Shown here piece by piece: positions 4,574 to 28,800 of a stretch of DNA of 41,923 nucleotides. The stretch is from Pinguiococcus pyrenoidosus. Its lineage: Eukaryota > Sar > Pinguiophyceae > Pinguiochrysidales > Pinguiochrysidaceae. Within the stretch, counting starts at the first letter, position 1. Every line of letters starts with the position of its first letter. The translations under genes and the position numbers were made by a program. The stretch spans positions 1-41,923 of the forward strand of contig JAAMXY010000681.1 of the NCBI GenBank assembly GCA_019677205.1, written 5' to 3'. Under the pieces are notes generated by a model that ran no database searches, was not told where the DNA came from, and worked only from the letters and a program-made list of their open reading frames with translations.

Positions 4574-4630
4574 AAATCGCGTGGATGTCTGGTTTGTTGT
4601 GTGCGTCGACGTACGCAAATCTGATGCTCA

Positions 4631-4670
4631 GAGCAGAGCAGAGCAGAGCAGCGCAGAGCAGAGCAGAGCA
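4631..4670. repeat. (GAGCA)8 pentanucleotide microsatellite
   Basis: Eight tandem copies of GAGCA, the fifth carrying one A-to-C change. The array begins 57 bp after the stop of the SAP-like gene and lies in the 249-bp convergent spacer before the CHAT gene's stop, so it is probably in one or both 3' UTRs. Confidence 0.9.
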
Positions 4671-4822: not shown

Positions 4823-7230
4823 TCATGCGTCGTCAAAGATCGGATCTGTCGGCAGGGCATAGCCCGGTCCCGCATACACCTGCGTCCAAAAGCCCGACTC
4901 CTGACGCACGAAGGCTGCCAGCGATGCGTAGTACCTGGTGCCATCTTTGTCGAGCGCGCGCCCGTCATCAAGAATCCGAACCGGAACTTGGTGGATCGCG
5001 CCGTCCTTCTTGAAGCAAACAACAAAATGCCCTGCAAGGCTCTCGGACAGGCGGATCAAGAACGTCCTATCTTCGCAGCCTGTTGTCGTCCGTTAACCAT
5101 TAGGCAGGCAGGCAATCGACAAGAGGCTGCTCGGTCGAGGGAGAGGACCTACCTGACAAAGCTACGGACGCTTCTCCGCCGCTCACGAGGCCGAGGATGG
5201 CATAGGGGTCCCCTGGGGCAGCCCTCCGGGTGGTGCGACGATTCCAGAGCGACTTGTTCACTATCAAGATTCGCAGGAAGTGCGCAAACCAATTGCAGAA
5301 AAACGTGAGGCTCTCGCGATCCAGCGACGGAGCCCGGCCATTCCAGATCTTGGCGCTGCTCCGCAGGAACGTCAAGTCCTGTGGGCTCAGAGGCCGAGTG
5401 CTGATCGCGGTCAAGCTCGTGTACCCTCCGCTGCCGCCGCTTGCTGACTCCCCCTCCAGCCGGACGTAGTTATCGTACCGGCGCTGGACCAGCATGTTGA
5501 ACCGATCCCACCCTTGCTCTTCGCTCCCCCTAGCCACGGTGTCCAAGACCTCGTCGACGAGCTCGTTGAGACTGAATCGCTTGCCAAGGTCCCCTGCATC
5601 TACGCCTTCTACGCTCGAGTTGGTCGCAGGAGTCGCCTGCGGCGGTGCCGGCGGGAAGCTGGGGCCCACGGGAAGCGGAACCACGTTCTCGACGGCGGCG
5701 GCCGTGAGCAGCTCGGACTTGGCGACATGGGCCTTCTCGAGGATCTGGTCGCGATCGTGATAGAGGTGCCTGGAGGCACAGAGATTCGCGATCTTCTCGA
5801 TGAGCGAGGGGTTCCCGTCCGTGGACATGACGACGGGATTGTTCGCCAGCGCCATCTTCCAGTTTCCCTCGTACAGCCCTCCTGTCCCGTCCAGGACTTC
5901 GTCCGTGCCGAGCCCGAGTCGCGGCAGCAGCTTGCTGAAGAGCAGGCCCGCGTCTTGGGCCTTGAGCGGGCCTACGCGCACGATCTTGATGCGGTCCAGA
6001 TCCGGGTGCCGATGCGCCGTGACGATGAGCTTGCTGCCTCTCTCCATCTTCGCCTGCAGGCAGCGCAGGAAGGGGATGAATTGCGCGCCTCGTCGCTCCG
6101 CCCAGAGGTCGCAGTTGTCCAGCAGGACCGCGACGCGACCGGCGGTGCCCTGTACGCTGCTCGCCAGCTTGCTGACGATCCGATCGACGAGCGCGTTCTC
6201 CTCGTACGGCTCCCTCGGGACGCCGAAGGCGTCGCTGAAAGCCGAGACCACGTCCGCATGCCCGTAGAAGTAGTAGCTGCAGTCGATCTGCACGATTTCC
6301 TGGATCTGGGCCCTGGCCGATGCGTAGCGCAGGGCGCAGAGCGCCACCTGCGACTTGCCGATGCCCTGGTAGGTACCCGAGTCCCCGGACACGACGATGG
6401 TGTTCACGTCCGGATTCATGAGGTGACTGTACGCCTCCTGCACCTCCACGGCCCTGCCGATGAACGGGGAGCACACGTTGATCTTTGGCTTCGGCAGCGC
6501 GGCCACTTCGCAGGAGCCACTATCCAGTGGCGTCAGAAGCGTGGCGCGGTTGGCCTCGTCCGCCTCGTTCATGAGGAGGTCAAACTTGCCCGCTTCCAAG
6601 TGGCCGCCGTCCTCATCGCGCACGCGGTCGCGCGCTCTCTCGAAGGCCTCCCGCACCTGAACCCCGCGCACGAGCTCCTGGTAGAAAGTCTGCGCGAAGT
6701 CGCGCGCGGCGATGTCCCCGACCTCGCAAGTGCTGCGCACGTGCACGACGTACTTCACGCCGCCCTCGAAGAACGCTCTGGCCACCGCTTCCGAGCGACA
6801 CGCACTGCAGACCACCACCTCGGGCTTGCAGTCTCGTCGCTGAAGGCGCTCCGTGATGGTCTGCGGCGCCATCAGCTTGGCCAGGCCGTCTTCCTGTGAG
6901 GAGAACCATAGAAGATCCAATGGTTTGAACCAACGTCGCGACAAAAAATGGCGGGAAAGTCGCGGTGCGTCTCACCTCCAGCACCAGGCCTTCGTCCTCC
7001 CCGTGACCTGTGAAGTGCAGGATCCGCGAGTTGAAGGCCAACTGGAACTTCTCGTTGCTGGCGTAGTCCCAAGTGACCCGCAATGCCACTCTCCCTCTCT
7101 GCAGACAGCGAAACAGGTCTTCTCTCTCCTCTTCGTAGCTCAGTTCCTGGAGGGCCTCCAGCGTGCCATCCGCGCGCTTTCGGCACAGAGGCATAGACAC
7201 CAGATGCGCCATTTCCGCGAACTCCGCCAT
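4823..7230 (-). CDS. CHAT protease - STAND NTPase - STAT-type linker-SH2 protein
   Basis: Three exons (7230-6976, 6893-5153, 5079-4823) join to 2253 nt, 750 aa, with introns of 82 and 73 nt. Residues about 8-180 are a CHAT (caspase-HetF-associated) domain: ILHFTGHGEDEG supplies the GHG His76 and VVVCSACRSE supplies Cys117. The first intron falls between these two catalytic motifs. About 225-470 are a STAND/NB-ARC-like NTPase: a P-loop ending GIGKSQVAL (Lys265), a Walker B strand VAVLLDNCD (338-346), a sensor-like GSKLIVTAHRHPDL (371-384) and GNPSLIEKIANL (445-456). After a Pro-rich linker, about 590-750 match a STAT-type linker plus SH2: FFCNWFAHFL, then LWN, AILGLVSGGEA and FLIRLSES, with the phosphotyrosine-binding Arg at 675. 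No TPR, WD40 or LRR repeats are present. The likely role is a cytosolic phosphotyrosine-responsive signalling or cell-death protease switch. Domain calls are strong; the role is inference. Confidence 0.85.
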
Positions 7231-7845: not shown

Positions 7846-10800
7846 ATGACTCTCCTGGCTCTGCTTGGCCTCTGGTGCCTGCTTGCCAAGGCGGCAGGCC
7901 CGCCGCCGCTCCTGCAGGTGCCGCAGGCAGGGCCGATTGCCGAGGACGAAGTGGCGACCATCTCCGGCACCTTGCTGTCCGCCGACGCCGGCCTCGTGGG
8001 CACCACTGCCGAAGCCTTTCTCGAGGTACGTTGCCTATCTCGACTATGGCAGATTCTTGACGAGACTCAAGATCCGCCTGGGATGCTCAGGTGCAGCTGC
8101 GATGCTCCAATGGCAGCCTGCGGCTGCCGCGATGGCAGGGCCTGCGCGTGCGCCAGGGCGACATCCGAAGCTTTTCCAACATACTGGCCTTTCAGGTAGA
8201 GCTCCGTTAGTGCTTGGTGACCCCGAAGGGCGCAGCTGACGTGAGATGGACGTAGGCCAGCGTCGCAGCTGCACGCCGCGCTCTCTTTGATATTGACTAT
8301 CTCGGCGAGCCACACTTTCACGGCCACGATGAAGTGCAGATCAGCGTCAGCCTGGGCTCGGATATCCAGGTCTCCACCTCCAAGACCATCGCTTTGGCTG
8401 TGGCGCCGAGAAATGATCCGCCGCGGCTCCAGCTGGCGCACGACGCCTCGCTTCGTACGGAAGAAGACGCCCCATACGTGTTTGCCTTTGAGCCTTTCTC
8501 CGACGCCGACGCAAATGCCAGTGCAGTTTATGAAATGCAAATAAACGCGACGTCAGGGGTGGTGAGGCTCGACAGAGCTGCTCTGCGACACTTTGCGTCC
8601 ATCAATGTGTCGACGCCGGAGGCACAGTCGTCGCTGGCATTCGAAGCGACTTTCGATGCGATGGCTGCCGCTCTGGATGGACACGTTTCTCTGACCCCCT
8701 TTCCGGATTTTAGCGGTATCGCGACAGTCAACTTTACTGTGACAGAGCTAGGGGCGGCTGAGGCCCAGTCCGTGTCTCTCTGCACCAACATTGAGGTTCG
8801 TGGCCCAGACCAGACTTTGATGCAGCTTCGAAGGGCTTTGCCGGGTCCCTTACCTCTGATGCAACTCTTCTGTGAAGGTGACGCCGAAGGTCGACGTTCC
8901 CCTCCTGCGCGTCCCAGAGCAGCTGAGCTGTGCTCAGGGGAGCCAAATTCAGGTCGACGGTGTTAATACATCCAGCCCAGACACCTCCGCTGTGTACAGC
9001 GTCGACGTCTGCAGCGACGCTGGCAGCGTTGAGGTCAACAAGTTCTTTCGCTCGGACAACTACATCCACTCCCCGCGGTATGGCAGTGTGCGACTCAGCA
9101 GGCCCTCCTCGCATTGCCTAAAGCTGGAAGGCCCGACGCCGTCGCTGAACTTGCTGCTGGCGTCCCTGCGCTACTCGGCGCCGATGGGCACCCGCGGCGA
9201 CACGATCCGATACCTCGTTTGCTTCGACGACTGCGCCATCCGTGTCGATGCCACTACCGAGGTTGTCATTGAGCTTCTGAACTCTCCTCCCACCTTACGA
9301 GTCCGTACGATTCAGTTGAAGGTGCTGGAGGATCAGGAGCTTCGCATGCAGGAGTTGGGCCTGACGCTCGCTGATCCGACCCCCAATGGCCGAGGGCTGC
9401 TGCGCCTTGCCTTCCACGCCAGCAGCGGCGACTTTGTCGCCAGTAATTCGGACGATGCGGAGATTATTCTGCATCAACTGTCCGGCGCTGACGCAGTGGT
9501 CGAGGGCTTACCAGGAGACCTGGAGCGCTACGTGCGGAAGCATCTCGTGTTCCAACCGCCGGTGGACCAAAACGTGCTTTCAATCGGCGTCGTCCAGGTG
9601 ACCGTGCATGCCGGTGACGAAGGCGGCGCCGAGACCGAAGCGAGTGTGAAGCTGGAGATCCTTCCCGTCGACGACCCACCAAGTCTCAGTCTACCCCCAG
9701 AAGCGCAGCGCGAAGTCGTGAAAGAAGACACGGAGGTTAAGCTGATGCGGAGTGGAACCCTGACCCACCCGGACGACGTCGACGGGCCGAAGCGCCTTCG
9801 CTTCGCCGCGACGTGCCGCCACGGGCGCCTCTATTTCACCGAGCCACGAGGTTTCCATTACCTCACGGACACCGGAAGCAACGTGGTTGTCGCCGCAGCA
9901 ACAGCCACCCTTCAAGAGGCTTTTGCAGATGGCATCTTCCGATATCACCCTGATGCGGACTTTGCCGGCCTCGACAAGGTGGACCTGAGTCTCTCCGATG
10001 AGTTCACGACAAGCTCACTGTCGCTCTCGGTAGAAGTGATTGCGGTGAACGACCCGCCGAGAATCGTCCTGCCCGACAGCTTCAGCGTTCAAGGCGACGA
10101 TGAGTTCGTCCGCGTCTCCGGCGTGGCCGTGGAGGATCCTGAGGTCGCTGCGGATCCACGGACGACTGTGAGAGTGGCAATCGCCGCATCCACTGGGCGC
10201 ATCCGAATCGAGGGAAACTCCCACATCGTCTTCGACCTGGGCACAAGTGGCGCCTTCGCGACCAGTCTTGTGGTCACGGGGCCCATCGCGGAAGTGAACC
10301 TGGCGCTTCCCACGCTGGAGTACTCGCCCGCTGCGGATTCTGATGGCGACGGTTTCCTTGCGATCGAGGCGAGCGACCAGGGCGTCTTTGGTGACGGCGG
10401 CGTTCAGAAAACGAGTTCGACTTTAAAGTTCGCCGTCTTGCGGCGTCCCGTGGTCACCAAGGTATCGGCGACGCCTAGCATGAACATCTCCAGCACGGAC
10501 GCCCTGTCCATTGGCATGCTTGGCGTCAGCGTCGCCTCGTCGGAAGATGTCGCAGAGCTGCGTATCGAGTGCAAGAGTTGTGTCCTAAGCTTGGACGCCA
10601 AGAAGAGCTACTTGGCGTCTTCGACCATCATCCTCAAGCAGCCAACCGATACGATGATGAGCATCAAAAGTACGCCCGAGTCGCTGGCCTTTGCGATTGA
10701 GGAGATGATCTTCTACGGGGTCGACACCTCCCCTGATCCCTACCCTGTTTCCGATGTCGTCGTTTTTTCTTTGGGTAGCTCGCAAGCGACCACCGCTGTC

Positions 10801-13800
10801 AGTTTTGTATACGCGGGCAGCGTCACCGTCGAGGCGAGCCCGTTGACTGTCGAGTGCGTCGAGGACACCGTTTGCAGCGGCCTGGAGTTTCGCGTTGAAG
10901 ACCCTTACTCCCCCACCACGACGCTTTACTCGTGCACCGTGGTGGATGCGGCTGCTCTCGGGACGTTGCATCTGAGGAGCGGGCTCGACCTCGAAGTTGG
11001 TGGCAACGGTACCAACGCCGTACAGATTCGCGGCCTTCGTGGGGACCTCAACGCCGCGATTGAAGGACTGAGCTACGCCCCGCACGACAACATCAATGGG
11101 ATAGTCGTCATATCCTTCAACGTGACGAATGGACGCTCGTCTGCGTCAGGCAGAAACATTCTGCGTGTGGCTCCCGTTGACGCTCCGCCCAAACTACGCA
11201 TACAAGACACAGTCTTCTCCACGGACGAAGACATGGAACTGCAGCTTTCCGGCATACTGCTAGAGGGCGAGGACGACCTGGTTGTGGAGGTGTCCCTGCA
11301 GGTTTCGCATGGTGCTCTCCGCGCCGAGGAAGCTGCGTATCTGACTTTGACCGAGTCCGGCGAGCAGGGCTCCCTGTCGCTTCGCGGGCGAGAGCGGCAT
11401 CTTCGTTCCTCGCTTGGCTCCTTGGTGTACCAGCCGGACCCCGGCTTCTCCGGCGATGAGGCACTGAGCATCATGCTGGTCGAGACCGGAGAGACTGCAA
11501 CCGTGAAGATCAAAGTTGCGAAAGTTGATGACCCGCCGCAGATCCTCCTGCCAAACGTTGACTTTGTACTGGAGATGACAGAAGATACGCCGGTGACGCT
11601 TTCCGGGACGCGAATCTCCGATCCCGACACCACGGAGCTAAGCGTCGAGGTCCGCCTACATGAGGGACTGGAGCGCGTCGCGGTCTTGAATACGCCGACT
11701 TGTCGTTCGCTGCAGTTGTCGTCCGCAGAGGAGAAAGCGGCAACCGTTTTGGGGTCGCCAGATGACTTGAACATCGCCATGGATTGCATCTCGATCGTAC
11801 CGGAAGCCAACTTCAACTCAGAAGCAAGTGGCGCAGGAAACCTTTCGCTCCGCGTGTGCGATACGCCGAACCGCTGCGTCGACAAGAGCTTGGTCGTGAT
11901 CATACGTGGGGTGGACGATGTTGCGTCCTTGACACTCCGTGCTCTCGGCGCGCGAAGCGTTCCTTTTGGGGAAGAACTAGATGTGGGATGCATCGGCGTT
12001 TCGGACGAAGCAGACGCCCTCAGGTGGCAGCTGTACAAAGTGCGAGTGACAGCCACATCGGGGCAGCTCCTCCTCAAGACGTCAAGCGGCCTCCGGCTGG
12101 TGGAGCCACTTGAAGGGGCGGGAGCCGTCCTCGAGGTCGACGGGCCGCTCGCCCGCATCAACACTGCTTTGGCGACGCTCACCTTCCGCGCGGAAGATGC
12201 CTCTCCTGGTCGCGCCACTGTCACCGTCCAGCTTTCCGAGGAGAACGACGAAGTTTTCATCCTGGTCGACACCAAGAGCTTTACCGTTGATGTGCTTTAC
12301 CCCAAAGCATTCCGCTTTGCGGACGTTGGCCACGAAGTCGAGGTCAACGAAGATGACAGCCTCCGCCTGGATTTCTTGGCAATGGAGGACGGTGGAATAG
12401 GCTTCGATCCTGTCCCGGTGACGATTGACGTGGAATGCCAGAGGGGGACCTTCTCGCTTCGACCCGGGGGTATCGTCGAGACCAGCGAATTGGAAGCGTC
12501 CTCCAGGTCGCTTCGGTTTCGTGGGCTGCGCGCGGACTTTTCCTCCCAGATGGCAAGGGCCAGCTACCACCCGGATCCAGAAATGAATGGCGTCGATCGA
12601 ATCTCCGTCCTGGATCGGTTGCATCCGCAGGTGGCCTTGCTTGAGATACCCACAAGAGTCAGGGCAGTGAATGATGCACCCAGCATCTCATTGAGTGTCG
12701 GAGAGGAACTTCGCGTTTTGCGCACTTCTTTGCCGACTTTGATAGCCGTGTCTGTTTCGGACGTCGACGCGAGCGACGGCTGCACATCGACGCCGATCTC
12801 GGACTTGGGCTTCTTGCAAGTCGATGTGAGCGTCCGCGACGGCGACATCCGACTCTTCAGTGAGATGGACGTCTTCCAGATTCTCAACGCAACCACCAAG
12901 TCGATTCGCGTGAAGCTGCGAGCGGGATCCGACCAACCCCTTCGGATCTGGTACGCCAGGCATGTTCCTGACGGCACGCCAGCGGGGATCTCAGCCATTC
13001 CAATTGACACTCTGAATGCGACGGTCCACGACCTTGGCAACTGCGGCGCCGGTGGGGCCATGACGCAGCGTGCAACGACGTCCATCCAAATCGAAAAGGA
13101 GCTCGCGAATCCGGTCGTCAACATTTCTGTGCCCAATGCGCTGGTTAACGTTCCGGAAGAAGGGGCTATGAAGCTTGACGCCTTCGGGGTGAGCCAAGCT
13201 GGAGCGTCCGCCCACGATGTCATATTGCTCACGCTGGTCGCCAGTCACGGCTCCTTTCAAGTCCGAGACGGCTCCTCTGCTGCGCCGCTGCTCCAAGTGG
13301 TTCACGTGAACGAGACCACACTTCGCGCACAAGTGGCTCTCGGTGGCGCCCATGAAGCGTTGGCCGCTATAGACTACTTGCCTTGTCCAGATTTCTTCGG
13401 CGTGTGGCCCATCAACGACGCAGCTGCTCAAGCGGCCATCTCTCGCATCGGCAGTCTGCCCGATTTGGAGAGAATCGAGCTGCTGGTTACGGGAGTTGGG
13501 AACAAGACAGGAAGGGGGAGCCTCTTCGTTACTGTCGAGCCCGTCCCAGACGCACCGACGATCGTGGTCGACCCGATGCTGCCAGTGGAGTACTCTTCGA
13601 GTCTGGAAGTTCTCCACGTAGCCGATGCTGACGCGCAGCCATGGATGGACGTCCGCGTCCTTCTCGCCCTCGGCGCGGAGAAGGGAGAGGTTCTCGTGGA
13701 CGCCGTCGAGAGTCTTAAGCTCGGCGTCGCCTTGCAGAACCAGTCTTCCTTGAGCTTCTCCGACCCAAAGGTGTCTCATCACCAGGTCATCGAAGGTGCC

Positions 13801-16800
13801 GTGGATGCCGTCAACCTCGTTCTCAGTCGCGTCGCAAGGTATGTGGCTGCGGTACCGTCGACGCCAAGGGATGTGATGCATCTCAAGCTTGTCGACGCGG
13901 ATGGACTCAGTGTCGAGTCGACCTTTGAGATTGACATTGCGGCTCCCGTGGATGCGTTCCTGCTGGAAGTTGAGGCTTCGCGCGTCCTTTCTGTTGAAGA
14001 CGAGGCGGCAATGCTGCCAAGCGTTCGAGTCGTTGCGGCTGACCCCTCGTCGCATGGGATTTTGACGCTTGCGGCAGAGCATGGCGACCTCTTCTTTCGT
14101 GAACAGCCCCTTGCGGCCGTGGCGGAGCCCGTCTACGAGTATCGCCTCATGCTCAAGGGAGTGCTGCCTTCGAACGAAGTGCCAGAGAAGCACCTTCTCA
14201 GGCTGACTACTTCCTTCGCCAGCGAAAGCCAACAGATCGATGTGACGGACAGTTCGGGAGTGGACACGGCCTATACAACGCTGGATGTGACCATCTCCCA
14301 GATGTTTGATGGGGAGACTTGGGAGACCTCTTTCTCCCTTGCAGATGCCTCGACTTGCGTGGAGAGTCTTGCGGCTGCTCTACAGGCTTTCCCATGGATT
14401 TCCCGGGTACAGGTGGTGGACAATATGCCATCCCTCGCTTCTTCCGATACATCGCCATGGTCCACGAGAAGTCTCCGTGTAGACTTCGTGGCAAACGGTG
14501 GCAATCTCGAGGAAATGCAAATCACGTCCTTTGACGCCGTCGGCGGTGCCGGGACGAGCATTCAGGTCACGACCAAGCGCGATGGCACGCGACACGACGC
14601 AGTCTACGTCGTGCGGCTGACTTCCCAAGAGGTGCTCACTGCTGGGAGCTTCCGACTCGTGATTCCGACGGTCGGACCAGCTCAAACCGCGGCCGCGAGG
14701 TCCACGGGTTTCCTGCCGCACAACACCTCCGCAGCAGATATGCAACAGGCGATCAATGGCCTCGGGGTCGGATACGTCATGGTCGGGCGGGATCAAGGTA
14801 CCAAGGGCGCCACGGACTACGTCTTTCGACTGACCTTTGCCGGGGACGTCGACACGAGAGCGGAGCCGGTGGTGACTTGGCTTGGAGGCCGCTCCAAGGA
14901 TGTCGCGTATGCGCAGCAGTGTGCTGCTTGCGCACCGTTTACCCGAGCTGATGGGTCCCAGGTGAATGTGGCAGTCTCTGTGACGCTGGGTGCCACAAGG
15001 AGCGGCAGCGTACCTTATGATCAAAAGGCCCGGTTCGTGCTCGACTTTGGGGACGGCGGCGTCGCATCCATTCCATGGCGGGCTTCGCCCAGCCAGCTCA
15101 AGGCTGCCATCGAGGCACAGACCGCTTACAGCGACGTGGACGTCTTCTCTCTCCGCGATGGTGATGGTGGGGGCGTCCAGTACACCATTACGTACAATCA
15201 TCCCGGGAAGGCTGGCGTGATCGTGCCGAGCTTGGCGGCATCGTCCCTTGCGGACGGCGAGTTTCTTTCGGCAGATCGGCTCACTCACGGCGCGTATCGA
15301 CAGAGGGGCTCCTACAACCTCGGCGTGGGGCATCTTCTGGGGAACACAGCCTTGACACTCACGGAAGACATACCTTTTGACGCCAGTCCTCGAGCAGTGG
15401 AGAGCAGCCTCAATCAGGCTCTGCGAGAAAGAGGCAGCGACGCTGTCTCCCAGGTAAGAAACATCGACAAGGAAGACGGCTCCCGAGAGCTGCGGATCCG
15501 CTTCGAAAAGCCATCCGCGCTGAAAGGGCGAGTGGAAGCCCTCGGCCTCAGCCTGGAGGTGGCGACGAAGTCCGAGTTCATATCGATCGCTGCAGCGAGG
15601 CATGAACCCTACGACCCTGCGCGGTCGCCCAGAGCCGCGCTCGTCTTCGAGGCAGAGCTGCCGCCGACGATCAACGAAACTCAGCTGCTGAGGTGCCAGC
15701 TGGGGAGCTCAGAAAATGGCACCGAGTGGTTCCGACTGGGGTTCTGGGGCCTGTGGACGTCGACGATCTCGTTGACGGCAGCAGTGGTCCCCGAAGCTCT
15801 TCCGCCGTGTTCGCCGAGACCAGCGGGTATCGATGAATCGTCTCCGTGTGCCGGCGACGGCAGCACCTTGCTGGAGATTCTCCAGGCCGCCGCCTTCCTT
15901 GGAAACATCAGCGTTCGCAGCAGCACACTACCCATGACAAGCGTCTGCGGCGTCGGCGCACCGCAAGAGATCGAGATCGACTTCCTACAGCCGTCCGGGA
16001 ATGCGGGTACCGCGTCGTCCATTTCTGAGCTGCTGCTCCTTGGTGACGTACCTCGCTTAGACGCGATGACTTCTGCGGGAGTCACCGATACGGTAATAGA
16101 GGTAGAGGAGCGGCAGAAGGGCTCGCATCCCCTCGCTCGGGAGATCCAAACGATCCGTATTGCATTCTCTGGGGCCAACGGCGGTGACCACGTCAGTGGG
16201 CATTTTCGGCTCGTGTATGATGACCCAGAGAGACATGAAGTGCTCGAGACCGAGGCGATCAGCGTCGCGGCTCGTCCAGAGGCGATCGAGGATGCATTGG
16301 AAGCCTTGTCCATCTTTTCCGACGTCCGGGCCTTCCTCGTTGACGAAGACCCGGCATCGGGCTCGCGGCTCTATGCCGTCGCCTTCGGGTGCGAGTGGAC
16401 CGACACCAGCTGCGACTGCAGGCAGAACGTCAACTTCCATAGCTTCTTTGATGACGACGGCGAGTACATGACGTATAACAGCCTCCAAGTCAAGTCAGAT
16501 CAGGTCAAAGACGGCGACGTCGTCCTCGATTCCGTGCGAAGCGGGACGCTCGGAATTCAGGGCTCCGTGGACATCTCAATCAGTGGACTCTACGGTGAGC
16601 CCCTGCGGGAGATTCGTCGCTTGGCCGTCTGCACGAGCCGGGTGGATGTCATCTCGACCACTGGCGTGAAAGCGGCGTCGGTGACGAGGAGCGCAGCAGA
16701 TCGAAAGTTTCGCCAGTACTGGATCCTCAGCCTTGACGCGGGCGAGGAGCTGTCTGCCACCAACGCGCGTCTCTGGGGGTCGCAATCCTTGTGCGCCTTC

Positions 16801-19800
16801 CCCACAGTGGGCTCGGACCTCTCGGAGGAGACCCATTGCGACTTCCCCTTTGTGACCGGCGATGGTATGCTTCACTACTCCTGTGTGGGTGCGGGGAGCA
16901 CTCCTTTTTGCCTGGCACGAGGTGGAGCAACTTGGGGACGCTGCGGCGTCTGCACATCGTCGACGAGACCGACGTTCTGGGCAGGCCAGCTTCGCGGTAG
17001 CATCTCTCTCCTTGGAACGAGCGACGAGCTGACGCAGGCAGTGGAAAAGCTCATGTACCTTCCGTGGCCAGACTGGAATTCCCTCTGGCACGGCGCAGAT
17101 CGTCTTCGTCTGCTCCTCCGCTCTTCCGACCGTTCCTTGGTGGCGTCGAAGACGATTCTTTTCAGCGTGGCAGCGACCGATGAATCCCTCAGAGTTCTCG
17201 GCCCGGGCTACCTTCGGACCAATGAAGATAGCAGCCTTGGATTGGGAGCGCTGCAGGTGGAAGACCCCGACGGCGCCTTCGTGACGGCGTTCTGGCAGGA
17301 GAAGTATGTCTCGCTCAAGGTGGAAGCCCAGCTTGGTACGCTCGAAACAGCAACCTACGCGCCCGTCGAGTTACTCAGCGCAAGGGCGGCGCCGACGCTG
17401 GAGGCAAGAGGAACCGTGCAGCACGTCAATCAATTCCTCAGGTCGATCATCTACTCTCCTGTGCCCAACTGGCACTCGCAGTGGAAAGGCGGAGAGGAGG
17501 CGCAGCTGGTCTACCTTGGTCCCGACGGCTTCGCCAAGGAGACCGAGCAGCTTCTCCTGCTACAGGCGGCGGCGGCCGAGGTCCTGACAGGGACATACAA
17601 GCTCGGACTGTCCTGCGCAGCCTTTGCATCCGGGACGCCGGGGCTCAACTTGACAGGCGTCGTCGAGACTTCCGCAGCCATTCCAGCGAGCGCGAATCCG
17701 CGCAGCCATCTGCAGCAGCTTCTGGACGCCTGTTCACAGCGCGTGTCGGACTACCTTATGACGCTCGTTGACACGCAGCTCGAAAACCCCTTTGCGCTGG
17801 CGAGCGTCGTGGTAACGCCGTGGCTCGACACGATGAAGCTGCTGACGTCGTACCAGCTGAGCTTCCGAGGCTCGCCACTCGATCTCAGCACGTTGGTCGT
17901 GAAGGACAATTCGGTGTCCGACGGATTCAGTAGTGTGGACGTCTCCGTGCGCAACATCCGAAACGGAGGCGGCGAACTGTATGGCTCCTTCGCTTTGACC
18001 TATGACGGCGAGTCCACCGCGCCCGTCTCGGTCTCGGCGGATGTAGCTGAAGTTGAAGCGGAGTTGCTTAAGTTTCAAGGCATCAGGTCCGTATCTGTTC
18101 GGGATGTCAGTTCTTCGGCCCAGCGAGCCTTCCAGGTCCGCTTCTACAGCAGTCGATCTACGTCTTCGACGTATCCCATGATAGTCGTCGACGAGGGTTC
18201 CTTGCGCGTGCGAGGCGTTGGCTACGAGGCACGGCGCAAGACCCTCGTCAGCCGGCGGCGATCTGCAGCTCCCACCCTTGACGTGATCAGTGTCTCCGTT
18301 GCAGACCTCGAGGGTCAGCGGCGTGAAACTCTGTTCGTGGTAGAGGTGGAAGTCACTCCGACAAGAGATCTTCCGAGGGTGTCGATGCGTTCCTTCAGCC
18401 CCATTGACGAAGACAGCGTCCTGTCCCTGCGCGGAATGCTCCGCCTCGACGACCCCGACGCCGAAGATGACCCATCAGCGAAAGTGAGCCTTCGCTTACA
18501 GGTTACCTCCGCCGCGTTTCGCGTCGGTGCCGAGGAGATTCCGCCAGACGCAGAGATAGATTGCGACCACTGCTCGAGCGGAACTCTAATGGTCGTAGGT
18601 TCGTGGAGCTCCATGCGAGCCATCTTCAACACCGCGAAAGACGAAGGGCTGGAGGTCTGGATTCATCCTGAGGCAGACTTCTTCGGCAGCCTGCACTTCA
18701 CGGCGACGTACGCCGACCCTTCTGGCTTTTCCGTTTCCACCGAAGACCTGATCTTCGTGGATCAGGTGGCCGATCCACCGCTGTTGTCTCTCAGCAATTC
18801 AAGCCTGCAGTGTGACCCCATGACTTCCTGTGGCCTCGGAAGCATTGCGGTTGGTGACAGGGACAACGCAGAGTGGGAGCAACTCTCTGTCGAGATCTTC
18901 ATCGAGGACGGGGCGCCGGAGAGCGCGGTGCTTGAATGGCCAGATGAAGTTCGCTCGCCGTATCCTTATGACCTGAGGCCCACGAGTTTCCGTTTCCTCG
19001 GGAGCGCCGAAGAGGCTTCGCAGGTGTTGAGCACCCTCACCGTTCGCACCACCTCATTGGACGTTGGAGCTGCCGTCATCTCCATCGTCGTCAAAGACTC
19101 GACGGAGCTTGAGGCGAGGGAGAGCGTTGAAACGGTCTTTGCCGTCTTGTCGTTCCGGCCAGCAATTCGCCTTCCAAACGACCTTGGTGTCGTCAGCGAG
19201 GCGAGTCAGATGCTCGAAGAGGACTCCGAGCTGCTGCTGCAAGGCACGGCGATCGAAGGTGTCCTGGACGACGCATGGATGCTGAATGTCACCATCAAAT
19301 GTGTTCACGGGACTTTTGCGCTAGTCGGCGATCCAAAACCTTCCCGGGCACGCCGCGAACACTCGGTCACAGGGAGGCGGGCGGTCGTCAACGCCAAAAT
19401 CCGTTCCATGCTGTACAAGCCGGACGAGAACTTTCACGGCGCTGACAGACTCGTCATCATGGTCGAACGAGCGACCGAGGACCTTCTCACTGCTGGTCTC
19501 GAGCCGCATCTCGCCACCATCCACGTGGGTGTACTGAGCGTCAACGATCCGCCAACGCTCGTGAAGCAAGGTAAGAACGCCTTGCGAAGAATTGCCTGTG
19601 GCGCCTTGGAGCTACTGATGAAACATGCCTGCAAAGGACCAGAAACCCCGATCCAGGTGCCCAAGCGCATATCCGACCGCAGCACGGGCCACAGGCTGGG
19701 CACAATTCTTTTGGTCTCGGATGTCGACAGCCCAGCCCATGCTCTCCTCAGGATCGAGGTGACAGCTCAAGAAGGCTTGCTGCGAGTCGACACCTCCGAG

Positions 19801-22800
19801 CCTTCCTTGCACCTGTACTTTCAGGGCAACAGGTACGCATGGTACAGATCGGAGCTTGCGACTAAGAACTCCAGCTTGCGCTCATTCGCATGCGGACAAA
19901 ACAGGACTGCGGAAGATCCGTTCATGAAGTCAGTGGTGTTTCGTGCGGTGGAAGCCGAGGCCACCGAGGCTCTCTCGAGGGTTCTCTACCTCCCAAGGAA
20001 GTTCTTTGTAGGAGCAGACACGCTGACCTACGCCGTCCGTGGCGACGTGCTGAATGGAGACCACCCTGGCAATATCGCCTCCGAGAGCATCCAGCTTGAG
20101 GTCGTCGACACCTTCGCCCCTCCGGAGCTGCTGACTTCGTCGAACTCGTCCGTCCTTCAAGGTCGCGAGGATGAGAGGATTGCCCTTCCGTCTCTCCACG
20201 TCGCACTGGACCCGGGCTCCGCGGGGGTGAAGCTTCGCGCGGAAGCCGACCACGGGGAAGTCCTCGAGAGTACACCCTTCGGCGCTGGAGGTCTTTTGAC
20301 GACAGAAGCAAGCGACGAGGAGGCGGCTTCGGTGTGGGCCTGGGAATTCCAAGGCTCTCCGAGCGACTTCGCGTCCACGATCCATTTCGACTTCGTGCCC
20401 GCGGCAGACTTTCACGGAGTCGCGCGAATAGTCTTCCGCCTGCAGGCGAAGAGCGCAAGAGACGGCCCGTACACTGGGGACGCGGAAGCGGAGTTTTACG
20501 TCTTCCTTTCCGACGTCAACGATCCTCCGTCGATTGCCCTCGCCGCCCAAGAGGTCTTGCTGGCTCCTGGGGTTCCTCTTGCACTAGGTAGCTTGCTTGC
20601 CGTCGACGACATCGACGCGGACGACGCACACGAAGCCGATCTTGTGTTAGAGCTGCTAAGCGACGGTGGTTCGTTTCACGTCGACATCGCTCCTGTGAGC
20701 TTCGGACAGAGTGGCTTGGGAAGCAGTTCCGCCTCGATCATGGCGCCACTGCGCAACCTACAGGCTTTGCTTAGCACGGCTTCGCTCTCCTTCTTGGTCT
20801 CCGAGGGATCATTGCCGACGTTTGTGAAGGCCACTCTCACTGATGGAGGCAGCGTAGCTGCTAAAGAAGGCATCTCCGTTAGCGAGCGGGTCGAAGTCTT
20901 TGTCGAGGGTGGAGCTCAACGTGCGCCAAACGCGTCGGTCTCTTGCTCCCCCTTCTGGTTGCAGCTTCGGGAAGGAGGCGATGTTCCACTCTCAGGCTGC
21001 CAGATCAAGTGCGCCCCGTCCACGGCGGACGAAACCGAGGCGTTCGAGCTGGAAGTAAGGGCGGCTCTCAGCGAAGGTGTTGCGTCTGCGGCAGGAGATC
21101 TTGGGGAGGATGTCGAGCTACACAGCGTCGAGGCACGAACTGCGCGCTTCACTGGGACTTGTCAAGCTCTGTCCAGCACGCTACGTCAAGTAACGTGGAC
21201 ACCGGCCAAGGACTTCAGCGGGCGCGAGACGCTTAGCCTCAGCATCCGCAGAGCTTCAGATGCGGCCGGTGATGGTTTTGACCTGGTGGTGGACGTGGAG
21301 GCCGTGAACGACGCCCCTGTCTTGTTTGCTCCGGCCCGGTCCGTCTCCACAAAGGTCAACACGACCGCGGAGCTGCCGAGAATGTACGTGACGGATGTCG
21401 ACGCCGTCGGACAGGTTCTGGAGATGCGTTTCGATTCGCAAGTGGGATCTATCGTGGTCTCCAAGTGTCCCCCCGGCGTTCTGATTCATGTCGATAGCGA
21501 CGGCATCTCTGAAATCTTCACCGCCCGCGGGATTCCGAGTCGGCTCAACAGTCTATTGCAGAACGTGGCCTTCGCCCCTGCGGCGGCTTTCGTAGGAAGC
21601 GTAAGACTATGCAAACAGCCTTGGTGGTGGCGTATGCAACTGGTGCTGATGCGTCTCGGTCGCTCTCTTCGTCTCTGAATCCTTCGCAACAGGCATCCAT
21701 CAACTGCACCGTCGACGACCTTGGGCACTCAGGAGTGGGACCGGCACTCAGCAGCAGCGTCGAGCTTCACGTGGACGTGGTGGGCGTGCCGGGCGCGCCG
21801 CAGCCGATCTTTCTCGGACCGAGGCCCTTTCTTTTGGAGGTCGACGAGGGTTCCTCGGTCCCGCTGGCGTCCCTGCTTGCCTTCGACGGCGTCCGCACCT
21901 TGGCTGAGATACTTAGTGTCGAGGTACGATTCTCAGGCCCATGTCCTCGTGGATCTCGTTGCATTCACGACCAATTTCTTGAGCAGGTTCTGGTGGCTCG
22001 GATCGTGTCCATCTCAAGCGTCGGTAGCGTCGTCAGTTGGGAAAAGACCGCCGGCAATGTCACGTGCGAGGGCGCCGCGGCCGATCCACACAGACTGCTC
22101 TGTGATGAGTACCGTTCTACGGGGCCTGCACACGAGCTGATACAGAGCACGCATACGACGATTGTGGCATTCCGCGAAGGACACGAGGACTACAACGGCG
22201 TCTTCTCCATGAAGTGTAGCGTCCACGATGCCGGCGGAAACAGCGTGACAAGAGAAGCTTGGGTCCGCGTGCTGCCAAAGGCAGACGCGCTCGTTCTGGC
22301 CATGACGCCCCCGTCGGAGTTGAGCATAAAGGAAGACGGTGTCGTACAACTCGGCAAGAGCCTGATCATCGAAGATCCTGATGAAGTTTCTGGGGCGCCC
22401 GCCGGACCGCAAACCGATATGCCTGACAAGCAGGTTCTCTTCTCTGTACGAGCCGACGTCCCCGACGTGGTGACAACCTTTGCCCGCCATCCTGCGGAGC
22501 TGAGGCGCTCGTCCTCTGCCTTTGAGACGACCTTCTCGGGTTCGGCTTCGATTTTCAAAGGCGCCGTGCAAGAGCTCACGCTCCGTCCCCCGCCAACCTT
22601 CTCTGGGCGCATTTCTGTGGAGCTGACCCTGACATCGTTCGTTGCCGATGGGACCCGGAGGTTGCACCCTGCTTCGACGGCCAGCTGTGTTGTCACTGTC
22701 GAGGCCAGGAATCGCGCGCCACGTCCGGTGATGGACGGCCTCGACGTGGAGGAGGCGGAAGACGACGAGGATCCTGCTCTGCACGTCATCGGCTTGAGAG

Positions 22801-25800
22801 TTGAGGATGCCGATTGTTTGCGGGATCCTGAAGTCGTGCTTTTCGGGATGCTCACCGTGGACAACGGACGGCTCGTTGCTCTGCACAACTCGACTGAAGC
22901 CAGGGTTTCGAGCGAGTCCGGCGTCTTGAGCGTGCGCGGAACCTGCAAGGGCGTCAACGAGGTTCTAGCTCACCTCGTCTACGAGCCGCTCTCCGCGCAA
23001 GTTGCGCCGGACATCCTCACCGTCGAGGTTTCCGACGGGGAAGCTTCCGCGACTTCGTCTATGCCGTTAACTATTGCGTCGAGTTTCCGACCGAGCGTGG
23101 CGTTCGAGAGTCAAAGAATCACGGCCACCGAAGATGAGTGGACTCCGCTTGGAAACGTCGACATTGGTGCAACGCGTGGATCAAGGCATCTCGACGCTGC
23201 CGTCGACGCCAGCGTCTACGTAGCTTACGGAGGACAGCTGGAGGTCCAGAAGATAGCCGTCTCAGGCAGTGTCAGTCACACGGTGCACCACGTGCGTACT
23301 TTGGCATCTTCTGGTCGCATCTCCGGCACTTTCGTGTTGTCCTTGGATCTGAGTGCCTATGGCCTGTCCATGATGTCTACGAGCCCGATCCAGTGGGACG
23401 CGATTCCCACCCCTGACGAGACTCGCGATGGCGCTAGCTTGGGCAGCGACAGCGGCGAGTCGGTGCACGAGAAGCTGGAGGAGGGTTTCATCGACCTGGA
23501 GGAGCTGGGTGTTGCAATCGTCGAAGTCACCCGCACGTCTCTTCCCGATGAAGTTGGGGGCTTCACCTGGCGAATCACATTCTCCAACGCACCCTACGAC
23601 TTCCCGTCGACAGCAGCTGCGTCGCTGCTTACGGGAGCTGCGGACGCCGACGTTGTGGCCTTCATCGCGCAGCCGGGCAATCTGGTGTCGGGTACCTTCG
23701 CTTTGTCGCTGGGCACGACACGGACGCCGCCCCTCCCATCCGACGCGACCGCCCAGCAAATGCAATCTGCTTTGGAGGGTCTCGATGCCATCGAGGTGGT
23801 CGGGGTATCACGAAGCGCGGAAGACGCGGTCAGAGGCAGTGTGTACCTGTGCACTTTCTTCGCGAATCGGGCTTACACCCACGACGCCTACAGCCTGCAA
23901 GCGCGCCACTTTGACGACACCGCCTCCGCTCCCGACACCGTTCGAGGGATGGCGTCCGTACCGCTCCTGGCACCGGAAGACGCTGGTCTCACAGGAGTCG
24001 GGGCGCGCGTGGCGACGGAAGTGGTCGAAACGAGCCAAGGGTATGTCTCCACTTATGCATTGGAAGTGAGCGCCGTGTACATTGCTCCGAGCTTCCGCGT
24101 CCGACTCCGCGCTACCTCGACGCTGTCGGCCGTCTCGGGATTCTTCCGGCTCGCGGTCGACACCTCCGCCGTTGACGCAGACAGGCTGGGAGGAATGAAC
24201 GGCAGACGACACCTGAGCTCGCCGATCTACGACGGGACGGTCGCGCGCAGCGCCGACGAAGCACCCCTCTCGGACCAGAGCTTTGAGCTTGGCACCAGGG
24301 ACACGGAAAGTTTCGAGAGTATCTCTCTTGAGCTCTTCAACGGCTTGGTGCGGCAGAAGAGCGACTTTGCTCTCTCTGTGACGAGGACGGAGGACACGAC
24401 GAACGAGGAGGTGCTCTGGGAGTTCTCGGTCGAGAACTGCCCGTTCTGGCTACCGCCCCTCCTCGCCATCGATCAGACGTCCCTTGCGGGCGCCACGGCG
24501 GCGATTGAGGTGACGCAGCGCACAAACCAGGTTGCCGGTGGCTTCCGGATCAAGTTCCCAGACCCCCTGGATCCAGAGAATGCAACCGTGTCCACCAAGA
24601 GCATGCCATTCGACGTAGCGCCGGCGACGCTGGAAGCGGAGATGATGTCGCTGGACATTTTCAACGATTCCGTTGTATTCATCGACGGCAGATCGGAAGC
24701 ACAGAGCAGGAATCGCCACACCTTGGTGGTAGTGGCGGGCGGTGGCGCGGATCTTGTCAATGGACGGCGATTCTTCCTGGGCTTCCTCGCCGAGCCAAAG
24801 GCGAACGTCTTGCGAGGCATGTATGCAGACGGGAGCGACCTCTCCGGCGTCGGAGCCTTTGCAAATCTTCGCGGTCTTCGAGCTTCACCAAGAGACGGAA
24901 CAGGGGAAGCGGCTTTGCTCGGACTGGGGGGCTGCGGAGGCATTGAAGTTCACAGCGAGATGATCAGCATGCGGGAGGTGACCCCAGCACGAGGCACCGA
25001 CCCCTGGCATTCATTCCTACGGGCGTTCGACACAAAAGAAGCGCTTCGCCTTCGAGGCTTCGCGAGTGCCGTATCAGACTGCCTGTCTCGTCTGTACCTT
25101 CTGCCGCCGCAGCACCACCACGGAGATCTTTTGGTGTACGTAGACGTCAAGGACTTGACGGCAGAAGCAGGTCGCGGAACCTCCTTGAACGGAGCTCTGG
25201 CCTCCAGCGACGTCCAGCGCGTCACCGTCAAGCCAGCACAGGACGCACCGATCTTACGCTATTGCGACCTGGAGGTGGCGAGGGTCAGCGGAGGCGCTCA
25301 GGACGGAGATTCAGGATCTTCGGGTGCCGTGCACGTGAGTACCCAAGAGGACGTGGGAATCGCGCTGGGCCTGCGATCAAACTGCCCCGTGGCGAGCGTG
25401 AGAGGGCTCCATCTGGACTCTCCGGATGCACACGCTCAAGTTTTCAACGTCAGCGTTCGCGCCCTTCACGGCGGTCTCTCAGTTCCACCACTGTCGCTCC
25501 AAGGTGGAAGCCTTCGCTTCGGCGGCAGTCTGTACGCCACGAACAAGGACTTCTTGAGCTATCTCCAATACATTCCAGCGCTCCACTTCCACGGGCTTGA
25601 CTCCATCGTGGTAGCCGTCGAGCCCGGAGCCGCCTTCGTGCTCGCGGTGGATGTTTTACCTGTACAAGACCCGGCTATCATCCGAGCGCCCAGCGAAGCA
25701 GTGCTGAACGAAGATGAACAGCATTTGCTATCGGGAGTCACAGTGGAGGACCCAGACGGCCCCGTGAACGCCCATGACTACTTGAGGCTGACGGCAACAG

Positions 25801-28800
25801 TTCAGGTGGGAACGCTGTTAATTGCTCACGCCAACCTACGCGGATCCTTGTCGCTCGTAGCAGCTCAGGAGCCGACTGGGGCTTCCGCCACGCAACAAGG
25901 CAAATCCCTACAGCTCGTGGGATGCTTGGAAGACATCAACGTGGCGCTGGAGACCCTTGCTTACTCGCCGCCCGAGGACTACAATGGTTTTGACATAGCC
26001 ACCCTCCATCTTCGAGACGGTGCCTTCGAAGACGAGGCCACGGTGGTCTTACGCGTCCTGCCAGTGAGAGACGTGCCGGAGATCATGGCGGAGATGCCGC
26101 AGCCCATGATTGCGTTCGAGGACGTGATGGGCGTCATCGGTGCGGATCCCACTGGCGAGATGGACGAGTCTTTGGATATGACAGGCAGCCTGCTCTCGAT
26201 CACGCCAATCTGGCTGCGAGACAGAGACGTCAACGGCAGCCGGAACTTGAGTGAGGAAAGCTTCCGAACCGTGGTGCCCGTGCAGATTCCTTTCTCCGAC
26301 ACCGCTGCGTTCATGCGAGACTATCCCGATCTCGGTCCGAGAGCCTTCACCCCAGATGACACGCTTCAGGTGGACGTCTTGGTGAATCGCGGCAGGGTCA
26401 TGCTGGCGGACTCTTCTCCGGAGGGTGTGGATGTTTTGAGAGAGACGCCCGCCGCCAACTGTAGCGTGCCCTCGAGGCTGACCCTCAACGGAACGGCGGA
26501 CGCTCTGAACTTGGCGCTGAGCAACGTGCGGTACAGGGCCTGCCCCAACTTTAACAGCGCCGGGAACGCTATGCCATGGACGGCGCCGGCGAAGGTGCCG
26601 GAGCTCGATGGGATCACTATCACTGTGCGAGACGACACGGGACTCTCAACGACGCAGACCCTCGCAGTCCACGTGGTGCCGTTGAACGATGCTCCGCACA
26701 TCGCAGTGGAGGGCGCGATCCTGAGCAACAGCGTCGACGGCAGCGGCCTACACCATCGCATCGACTCGGTGCCAACTCTCGTCGTGAAAGAGGACGAACC
26801 GGCCTACGTCCCCGAGGTTTCCATTCACGATGTGGACGTCCTCGAGACCAAGCCGTTCCTGGAGGACAGCGCCTTCTACGCGAATCTGTCGTTCCTCGAG
26901 AAGGATGACTCCTTTAGCTCACTGATGCTGACGTTGCGGGTGGAGAGCGGCAGCATATGCTTGGCCAGAGGCGCGCCGGTCTTGCGTTTCATCTCTCGTT
27001 CATGCGGCGATGGCTGCAGCTGCGGCCGCACCGCATTGCAATTCACGGTCGCTGGCGCGCACATCCAGCACGTGCTCCGCGACATGTACTACGTGCCACG
27101 TCTCCACTTCTTCGGCAACGATTCTCTCACGATCCGCGTGTCGGATCAAGGGAACAGCGGGATCTCGGTTTCGTGCGTCGACCCGTACTTCTACACGCTG
27201 GAGGCGAATGAGAATCTCACAAGCTTCTTGTCTGCCGAGAACATTCTCGCAGGCTCGGTGTTTGTGGACGGCAGCGACGCGTATGACGAGGGCTATGCAG
27301 AGGATTGCTCCGGGGTGGAGTTGGTAGACGCGCTCGTCCTCCGCATGGAGGTAGTCCCGGAGCCGGACTTGCCGGAGATCGTGCTTCGCGAGGCCTTCTA
27401 CGCGATGGAAGAGGACTCCACCATCGAGATCACCGGGCTGCACGTGCTGGACTCGGATGACGAGCTCTTTGTCGGGATCAGCGGCGAGCCGGACCTCCAG
27501 CAGTTCCCACCAGCAAGCATTGATATCCCGTTCACAGAGACCGCTGCGCGATTCGAGAACGTGACGGATGGCAGTCTTCTTCATCCCACCTTATCTCAAC
27601 TGGACCCGAGCATCACTTCTGACGAGACTCGCTTCATCAGGGTGCTCATCCTTAGTCCACGCGGAGTTGTGACCCCTGTAAGAACGACAAGCATTGAGAT
27701 GCGAAGGGGAGTTCTAGAGGCAAGTCTGGAGCATGCCGGAGGCAACTACTTGGAGCTGCGAGGCCACTATCTGTACGTGAGCGAAGTCACGTCGAGGCTG
27801 CTGTACACTTCGGAGACGGACTGGTGGAATGACGACGGCGCCATGGACAAGATGGAGATCTTCGTCACGAACGTCGACACTCACTTTACGAGTTCCCCAC
27901 TGGACGGGCATCACTTCCGTACCGCCACAATCGGCATCCACGTGCGCGGAGTCAACGACGATCCGATCATACGCTCTTCTGCCAACTTCACAACGCTCGC
28001 TGCGGAGCTTGCGCCGGTTGCGGTAGCGAACTTCTCCGAAGCCGAGTATCCCGGCAAGCTCGTCGTGGACGAAGACCAGGAACTGGCCATCAAAGGCATG
28101 TCAATCAGCGACGTGGACGTTCGTAGCCAGGAGCACGACCACGCAGACATGGAGCTGACGATCTCTGCCACGAACGGCATCATCCGCATCGTCGACTGGG
28201 CCGACTCCTACGCGTATCCAGACGTGACCAAGAAGGGTCATGCCGATCGTGTCCTACGGCTGAGAGGAGATCTGCGCAGCCTCAACGTCGCACTTTCGAC
28301 CCTGTCGTATCTGCCTGCTGCAGACTACTTCGGCCCCGAGCTCATCAGTATCCGGGCTGACGACCTTGGCGGCGGCACAGACGTCTTTGCGATGCCCGTC
28401 TGGGTGACGCCCGTCGACGACGCTCCGTCGATTGATCCACTGGAATCGGCCGTCGTCGCCGACGAAGATGCATCCATTGCGTTTCCTCCCATGGACATCA
28501 AGGATCCGGACGACGACATCTTGCTGCTCACCTTCACGGTGGAGCGAGGGGCACTGAACGCAGGAAGCGACATCCCCAACGCAAACTTCTCCGTCGGCGA
28601 TGGAAAAGGCGACAACAAGCTCGAGCTGCTCTTGCCGACCTCGGAGGTCCCCGTTTTCATGGCCTCGCTTCTGTATACCACCCCGAGGGACTTCGCCACA
28701 GCCGCCGGGGCGGTCGCGGACACGATTACGCTCGTCGTGCGCGACAGCGTGGACGAGCCCGCCTCCAGACTGACAACCACCGCCAGGGTGCAAGTCTTCG

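Follow-up and report, generated by a model that had tools for sequence, protein, structure and literature searches.

A predicted CHAT-STAND protein with a C-terminal STAT-type linker-SH2 domain in the alga Pinguiococcus pyrenoidosus

Results

Gene model and coding evidence

Pinguiococcus pyrenoidosus is a marine, golden-brown pinguiophyte alga belonging to the ochrophyte stramenopiles. The stretch analysed here (C271:1-41923, all 41,923 nucleotides of which are referred to as the window) is part of a 23.7-Mb assembly of 768 contigs. On its minus strand the window carries a three-exon gene (Table 1) whose predicted product combines a CHAT domain, a STAND-type NTPase and an SH2 domain preceded by a STAT-like linker. 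A GAGCA-type short repeat array (window 4626-4670) separates the 3′ end of this gene from a neighboring plus-strand frame. Two very long, overlapping plus-strand frames at 8860-21678 (4272 aa) and 21513-30104 (2863 aa) carry bacterial-type cadherin/Ig repeats (Cadherin_4, Big_9) and may together form a single giant surface protein whose intron would lie where they overlap.

The 750-residue join proposed in the original prediction was re-derived, and coding potential was evaluated using a codon-usage score whose training set was a single long frame from the window, itself presumed to be coding. Scores in the proposed frame were positive for all three exons (0.24, 0.29 and 0.26 for exons 1, 2 and 3), and the remaining two same-strand frames scored below zero in each exon. 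Some antisense frames gave weakly positive scores, with a maximum of 0.11 over the exons and 0.14 for the antisense frame at 5448-6899, as did two of the six intron frames (0.15 in intron 1 and 0.07 in intron 2). When the letters of exon 2 were shuffled, none of 2000 shuffles was free of stop codons. A chance open frame is ruled out by the codon scores and the exon 2 shuffles. The splicing pattern can be compared with EukProt model P0001, labelled Pinguiococcus pyrenoidosus, which is 100% identical across 74% of the 750-aa product and has the identical exon 2/3 junction; this model starts at residue 193, within exon 2. At the other junction, the CHAT half encoded by exon 1 aligns across the splice site with uninterrupted frames on C210, C93 and C407, with GHG and the cysteine conserved.

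Table 1. Features of the CHAT-STAND-linker-SH2 gene (window coordinates)
Feature	Position	Strand	Extent	Evidence or remark
Full CDS, ATG to stop	4823..7230	-	750 aa, 3 exons	
Exon 1	6976..7230	-	residues 1-85	CHAT N-terminal half; codon score; Pfam CHAT match crosses junction
Intron 1	6894..6975	-	82 nt	GT-AG, phase 0
Exon 2	5153..6893	-	residues 86-665 and first base of 666	CHAT Cys half, NTPase, linker
Intron 2	5080..5152	-	73 nt	GT-AG; in-frame stop inside; spliced out in P0001
Exon 3	4823..5079	-		bulk of SH2 domain and C-terminus
CHAT domain	6606..7131	-	residues 34-181, intron 1 inside	Pfam PF12770, E 1.1e-11
His76 of CHAT dyad (FTGHG)	7003..7005	-		GHG kept in C210, C93, C407
Cys117 of CHAT dyad (CSAC)	6798..6800	-		Cys kept in P0002, C210, C93, C407, C90
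STAND-type NTPase core	6066..6464	-	residues 229-361	AAA_16, below cut-off
P-loop GDSGTYQGIGKS, four-residue insert	6351..6386	-		alignment with relatives
Walker B-like VLLDNCD	6108..6128	-	residues 341-347	
STAT-like linker	5198..5396	-	about residues 585-651	
SH2 domain	4907..5192	-	residues 653-723, intron 2 inside	Pfam PF00017, E 3.2e-5
Arg675 of FLIRLSES, expected phosphotyrosine-binding arginine	5051..5053	-		kept in 3/3 proteins aligned

CHAT domain and NTPase

The CHAT match scored 45.2 bits against a curated PF12770 cut-off of 24, and Peptidase_C14 also matched within the same stretch, under its cut-off (E 0.058). Both residues of the catalytic dyad claimed in the original prediction, His76 and Cys117, are where it had placed them. 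The frames of P0002, a EukProt relative described below, and of C90 do not reach the His76 position. The His-Cys pair is thus intact in the window protein, and the domain is predicted to be a cysteine protease of the caspase/separase-like kind. A search for gasdermins (PF04598) gave no match in this genome, using a model that in our judgement may well miss non-animal gasdermins.

The NTPase had been described as STAND/NB-ARC-like, and the first half of that description fits better than the second. In the window protein AAA_16 reached only 17.8 bits (E 0.005) against a cut-off of 32.6, and every listed NTPase model was likewise under cut-off in C93 and C407. The relatives were clearer, with AAA_16 at 37.6 and NACHT at 36.1 bits in C210, AAA_22 at 30.0 bits in P0002 (cut-off 27) and AAA_16 at 34.3 bits in C90 (cut-off 32.6), all above their cut-offs. 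The best models in C210 and P0002 are thus AAA_16, AAA_22 and NACHT, and NB-ARC, which attained at most 14.3 bits (in P0002) and stayed under cut-off, is an imprecise label. The alignment revealed a Walker B-like strand across the proteins (LLDNCD/ILDDCD/ILDGMD) and a GNP motif in the window protein, P0002 and C210, which together we take to be marks of STAND NTPases. The P-loop is another matter. It reads GDSGTYQGIGKS in the window protein versus GPLGIGKS in P0002, and the insert is absent from all five relatives aligned. Since the insert breaks the usual G-x4-GK[ST] pattern, the NTPase of the window copy may be altered or dead.

SH2 domain and STAT-type linker

The SH2 domain exceeded the Pfam cut-off of 21 bits in the window protein (24.4), C210 (26) and P0002 (29.6), and the arginine that the original prediction had assigned to phosphotyrosine binding was found at residue 675 in FLIRLSES. 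Arg675, Ser677 and Glu678, together with Cys117 of the CHAT domain, are invariant among these three proteins. Phosphotyrosine binding by the SH2 domain of the window protein is a prediction from conserved residues.

To what extent the domain is of STAT type, as originally claimed, depended on the query. A profile built from the linker-SH2 regions of the window protein, P0002 and C210 was searched against solved chains, and its top match was Dictyostelium STATa (E 5.2e-9). STATs made up eight of the best 60 of 284 matches; all eight STAT alignments start in the linker (profile positions 57-61), and none of the other 52 starts before position 118. With C210 removed, STATa again ranked first (3.9e-4) and was the sole STAT among the best 60 of 114 matches. 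P0002 used alone also found STATa as its best match (E 2.2e-4), with STATs in 11 of 27 rows, and matched one solved CHAT protein as well (8tl0, 0.0053). Profile-profile comparison with hhalign, using STAT segments picked since STATa was the best match, gave a score of 83 (E 7e-14) for the linker-SH2, and SHP2 SH2 segments scored 44, although the SHP2 profile is built from two sequences of another length that have no linker, so that the two scores are not strictly comparable. The linker by itself scored 22.7 against the STAT segments (probability 24%) and 21.6 in a repeat run (probability 15%), a value reached by none of 100 column shuffles (maximum 10.4).

The STAT relationship was not recovered from the window linker-SH2 sequence alone, which gave weak SH2 matches (best E 0.016) and no STAT among the best 60 of 66, nor from the linker profile alone, which gave no PDB match with an E-value of 10 or less. 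Pfam likewise returned no linker match for these proteins at E up to 10. The latter says little, because the STATa linker is itself matched by Pfam solely via EF-hand_12. Judged from the profiles, P0002 and hhalign, the linker-SH2 of these proteins is closest in sequence to that of STATs.

Relatives with the same domain order

C210 (L012:2492-5866, minus strand) encodes CHAT, AAA_16, NACHT and SH2 in the same order within one open frame of 1125 codons. All four matches were above cut-off: CHAT at 21-236 (8.1e-12), AAA_16 at 348-540 (4.2e-9), NACHT (7.5e-9) and SH2 at 941-979 (9.9e-6). Its SH2 domain is split by ~110 low-complexity residues, and the Pfam match covers only profile positions 6-45 of 77. 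In view of this single-frame paralogue, wrongly joined neighboring genes were rejected as the source of the architecture.

The second relative, P0002, is a 664-aa protein that bears the name of an MMETSP transcript and belongs to a two-member cluster drawn from JGI and MMETSP. It is 40% identical to the window protein over 87% of the query and contains the CHAT Cys half, AAA_22 and SH2, all above cut-off; the deposited ORF begins downstream of the CHAT His half. Within this genome it matches the window gene best (43%), so it derives from a different organism or a gene that this assembly lacks. P0002 continues ungapped across the exon 2/3 junction, and since it carries a transcript name, this speaks against separate messages for the NTPase and the SH2 domain.

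A domain search on the 750-aa join, which had been suggested as a check, confirmed CHAT and SH2 above cut-off but not AAA_16, which stayed below. The original claim that the three domains lie in one protein nevertheless gains from the Pfam scores of the relatives, the single frame of C210 and the extent of P0002. Taken together, these sequence comparisons support a predicted fusion of CHAT, a STAND-type NTPase and a STAT-type linker-SH2 in one polypeptide.

Shared-word searches of a large protein set (with 8000 candidates scored for two of the queries) listed two, one and four proteins and no further CHAT-plus-SH2 protein among them; the linker-SH2 query returned only itself and missed even P0001. 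Two short patterns gave 67 matches and no relatives in viral contigs. In a scan of genome_contigs for a prokaryotic gene of this architecture, two short patterns gave 354 matches and one relative, a cyanobacterial (Trichormus) protein similar over residues 64-169 only. The CHAT part of this protein (Trichormus sp. NMC-1, L018:390-3488, plus strand) is 37% identical in the best segment and, by eye, has NAYYS at the second catalytic position where the window protein has SACRS; because of this, it looks protease-dead. A known anti-phage defence protein was also considered and rejected: PADLOC gave only marginal matches (best E 8.6e-5) for four of the six proteins given, a set that did not include the 750-aa join, and its SAVED_CHAT value for P0002 was 0.0014. 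The NCBIfam search gave P0002 two matches far under cut-off, the other two proteins searched had none, and Rfam returned no matches.

SH2, CHAT and phosphotyrosine signalling in the genome

An exon-by-exon search with PF00017, which yields a lower bound, identified at least four SH2 sites in the genome, namely the window gene, C210, C138 and C168. Two of these four detected sites are in CHAT-STAND proteins. The C138 site lies in a frame resembling SPT6 by eye. The C168 site (L014:3-1475, minus strand) is near a contig end, and its frame has no second Pfam domain with an E-value of 0.1 or less. The one STAT model searched against the genome, the STAT_alpha coiled coil, gave two matches, neither above cut-off.

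PF12770 gave 18 matches on 16 contigs, and the CHAT frames were scanned on 14 of these (all except C620 and C253). Five proteins have an N-terminal CHAT followed by an NTPase: the window protein, C210, C93, C407 and C90. SH2 is present in two of the five, and the C93, C407 and C90 frames show none. In C93 (L015:4279-8073, minus strand) LRR matches precede the CHAT domain and an nSTAND-like NTPase follows, an unusual order in which both the LRR and the NTPase matches are under cut-off. The nine further CHAT frames comprised one separase, six TPR-CHAT proteins and two with CHAT alone, of which the one on C349 extends to the end of its contig.

Of 203 candidates for the kinase model PF07714, 141 were scored, and at least 101 matches had E-values of 1e-20 or lower. 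Motifs were inspected in 100 of the 101, the match on C129 being left out: 94 have a Ser/Thr-type loop, five have no motif in the fragment and one has a tyrosine-kinase signature. Allowing frames with up to two stops changed these counts to 95, 4 and 1, and no match had both motifs together. The single tyrosine-kinase-like domain (C14:15292-15900, minus strand, within C14:11500-19500) contains HRDLACRNLL and GPVRWEAPES, and its best 60 of 952 PDB matches are tyrosine kinases (an EGFR entry, DDR1/2, ROR, Trk, ITK and others) with the exception of two plant CTR1 rows. The tyrosine phosphatase model PF00102 gave four partial matches (best 3.5e-6). Together, the tyrosine-kinase-like domain and the phosphatase matches make a minimal phosphotyrosine circuit plausible, and the presence of the former makes a switch triggered by tyrosine phosphorylation more plausible. 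According to the available part of the Acanthamoeba genome paper, Dictyostelium kinases of the tyrosine-phosphorylating kind are more TKL-like, and about half of the SH2 proteins of Acanthamoeba share architectures with Dictyostelium, STATs included (PMC4053784).

Discussion

Our studies describe a predicted protein in which an N-terminal effector, a central STAND NTPase and a C-terminal SH2 domain follow one another, the last probably in the role of sensor. In STAND receptors this C-terminal place is usually taken by repeats. Pfam found no C-terminal LRR, WD40, TPR or ANK repeats in the window protein at E up to 1. Based on these observations, we propose, with a probability of roughly 55%, that the window protein is a single-chain receptor of NLR layout in which an SH2 domain replaces the repeat sensor and a CHAT protease is gated by phosphotyrosine. 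A tyrosine-phosphorylated partner would bind the SH2 domain via Arg675, and this binding would release an autoinhibited state. The NTPase would then oligomerise and cluster the CHAT domains, allowing neighboring CHAT domains to be activated and to cleave a substrate, and the cleaved substrate could start a stress, death or defence response. Every step of this scheme, from autoinhibition and its trigger through NTPase-driven assembly and proteolysis to the substrate and the biological role, is our inference from domain order and conserved residues.

The nearest known systems each share part of this layout. Fungal NLR-like sensors with a CHAT domain have been counted among the proteins that control gasdermins; they likewise use CHAT as the effector of a eukaryotic STAND/NLR-type receptor, however, their repeats are WD40, ANK or TPR (PMC12881547, available part), where the window protein has SH2. 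SH2 is mentioned nowhere in that text. The TPR-CHAT proteins, which include Craspase, also contain the CHAT protease domain (PMC9729208, available part). In contrast to the window protein, the six of the nine further CHAT-type frames of this genome that have TPRs place CHAT C-terminally, behind the TPRs. Proteins of the NCOA6-clade with TRADD-N belong to a family linked to death and immunity and have variable C-termini in which SH2 or caspase domains may be found, but the two occur there as alternatives alongside TRADD-N; a CHAT-STAND-SH2 chain is not described in the available part of that report, where CHAT is absent as a whole word (PMC8195603). As for the STATs themselves, both Dictyostelium STATa and the animal proteins have a collinear linker and SH2 with an FLxRxSE strand. 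They differ in possessing coiled-coil and DNA-binding domains, neither of which was detected by Pfam in the window protein, and a conserved tyrosine in the C-terminal tail, which is not kept here (the window protein has Tyr734 and Tyr739, and P0002 has no tyrosine after the SH2 domain).

The SH2 domain might instead serve as an adaptor that targets, or recruits substrates to, a CHAT-STAND protein that is always competent or otherwise activated. In that case the trigger would be sensed by another element, such as the NTPase or a partner. SH2 domains are mostly adaptors, and C93, C407 and C90 demonstrate that a CHAT-NTPase core can occur without one. Nevertheless, the domain sits at the C-terminus, the usual place of the STAND sensor, and the linker is kept beside it in the window protein, C210 and P0002. 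A kept linker suggests that the SH2 domain would be packed against something, as it is in STATs, rather than being a free adaptor. We regard an adaptor role as unlikely, though it deserves serious attention.

A catalytically dead or switch-dead scaffold, whose degenerate NTPase makes it a decoy or regulator of its paralogues, appears improbable to us. The P-loop insert, found in the window protein alone among the six aligned, and the AAA_16 score under cut-off would fit such a role, but the His/Cys dyad, the Walker B-like strand and the GNP motif have all been kept, and the codon statistics are those of a maintained reading frame. Slightly more doubtful still is that the SH2 domain reads some other phosphorylated or an unphosphorylated ligand, like some divergent SH2 folds. 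A single tyrosine-kinase signature among 100 kinase matches examined would agree with this, as would the SPT6-looking frame with an SH2 domain, SPT6-type SH2 domains being readers of other phosphosites. Against it, the FLIRLSES strand is intact, its R, S and E are invariant in three proteins, and the domain is closest to that of STATs, which bind phosphotyrosine. Finally, a gene-model artefact in which neighboring genes were falsely joined is very improbable, since the two introns deduced from sequence and the start of P0001 within exon 2 are outweighed by the same domain order in single-frame C210, by a transcript-set relative (P0002) covering the CHAT Cys half through SH2 and by positive codon scores in all three exons.

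Returning to the phosphotyrosine-gated protease, we tentatively extend this reading to a small family of algal receptors that may couple phosphotyrosine reading to a caspase-like protease via an NLR-type switch, with a STAT-type linker-SH2 as the sensor; we hold this wider proposal with somewhat less confidence than an even chance. NLR-like proteins with CHAT are known, as are STAT-type SH2 domains, and joining the two is new as far as we are aware. We know of no other combination of CHAT with a STAT-type SH2 domain, and 'CHAT domain' and 'SH2 domain' occurred together in no paper found by a literature search that most subscription papers lay outside.

In conclusion, these proteins present a STAT-type linker-SH2 occurring outside a STAT. 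If the family reading is true, the linker-SH2 module would be mobile and used outside transcription. Since two of the four SH2 sites detected, itself a lower bound, are in CHAT-STAND proteins, such proteins may be a main outlet of phosphotyrosine signalling in this genome. Two signalling systems usually thought of as separate, one reading phosphotyrosine and the other activating a caspase-like protease in the manner of an NLR, would then be united in a single-celled photosynthetic stramenopile, providing a testable route by which a kinase signal could lead to regulated proteolysis or death in a unicellular alga.
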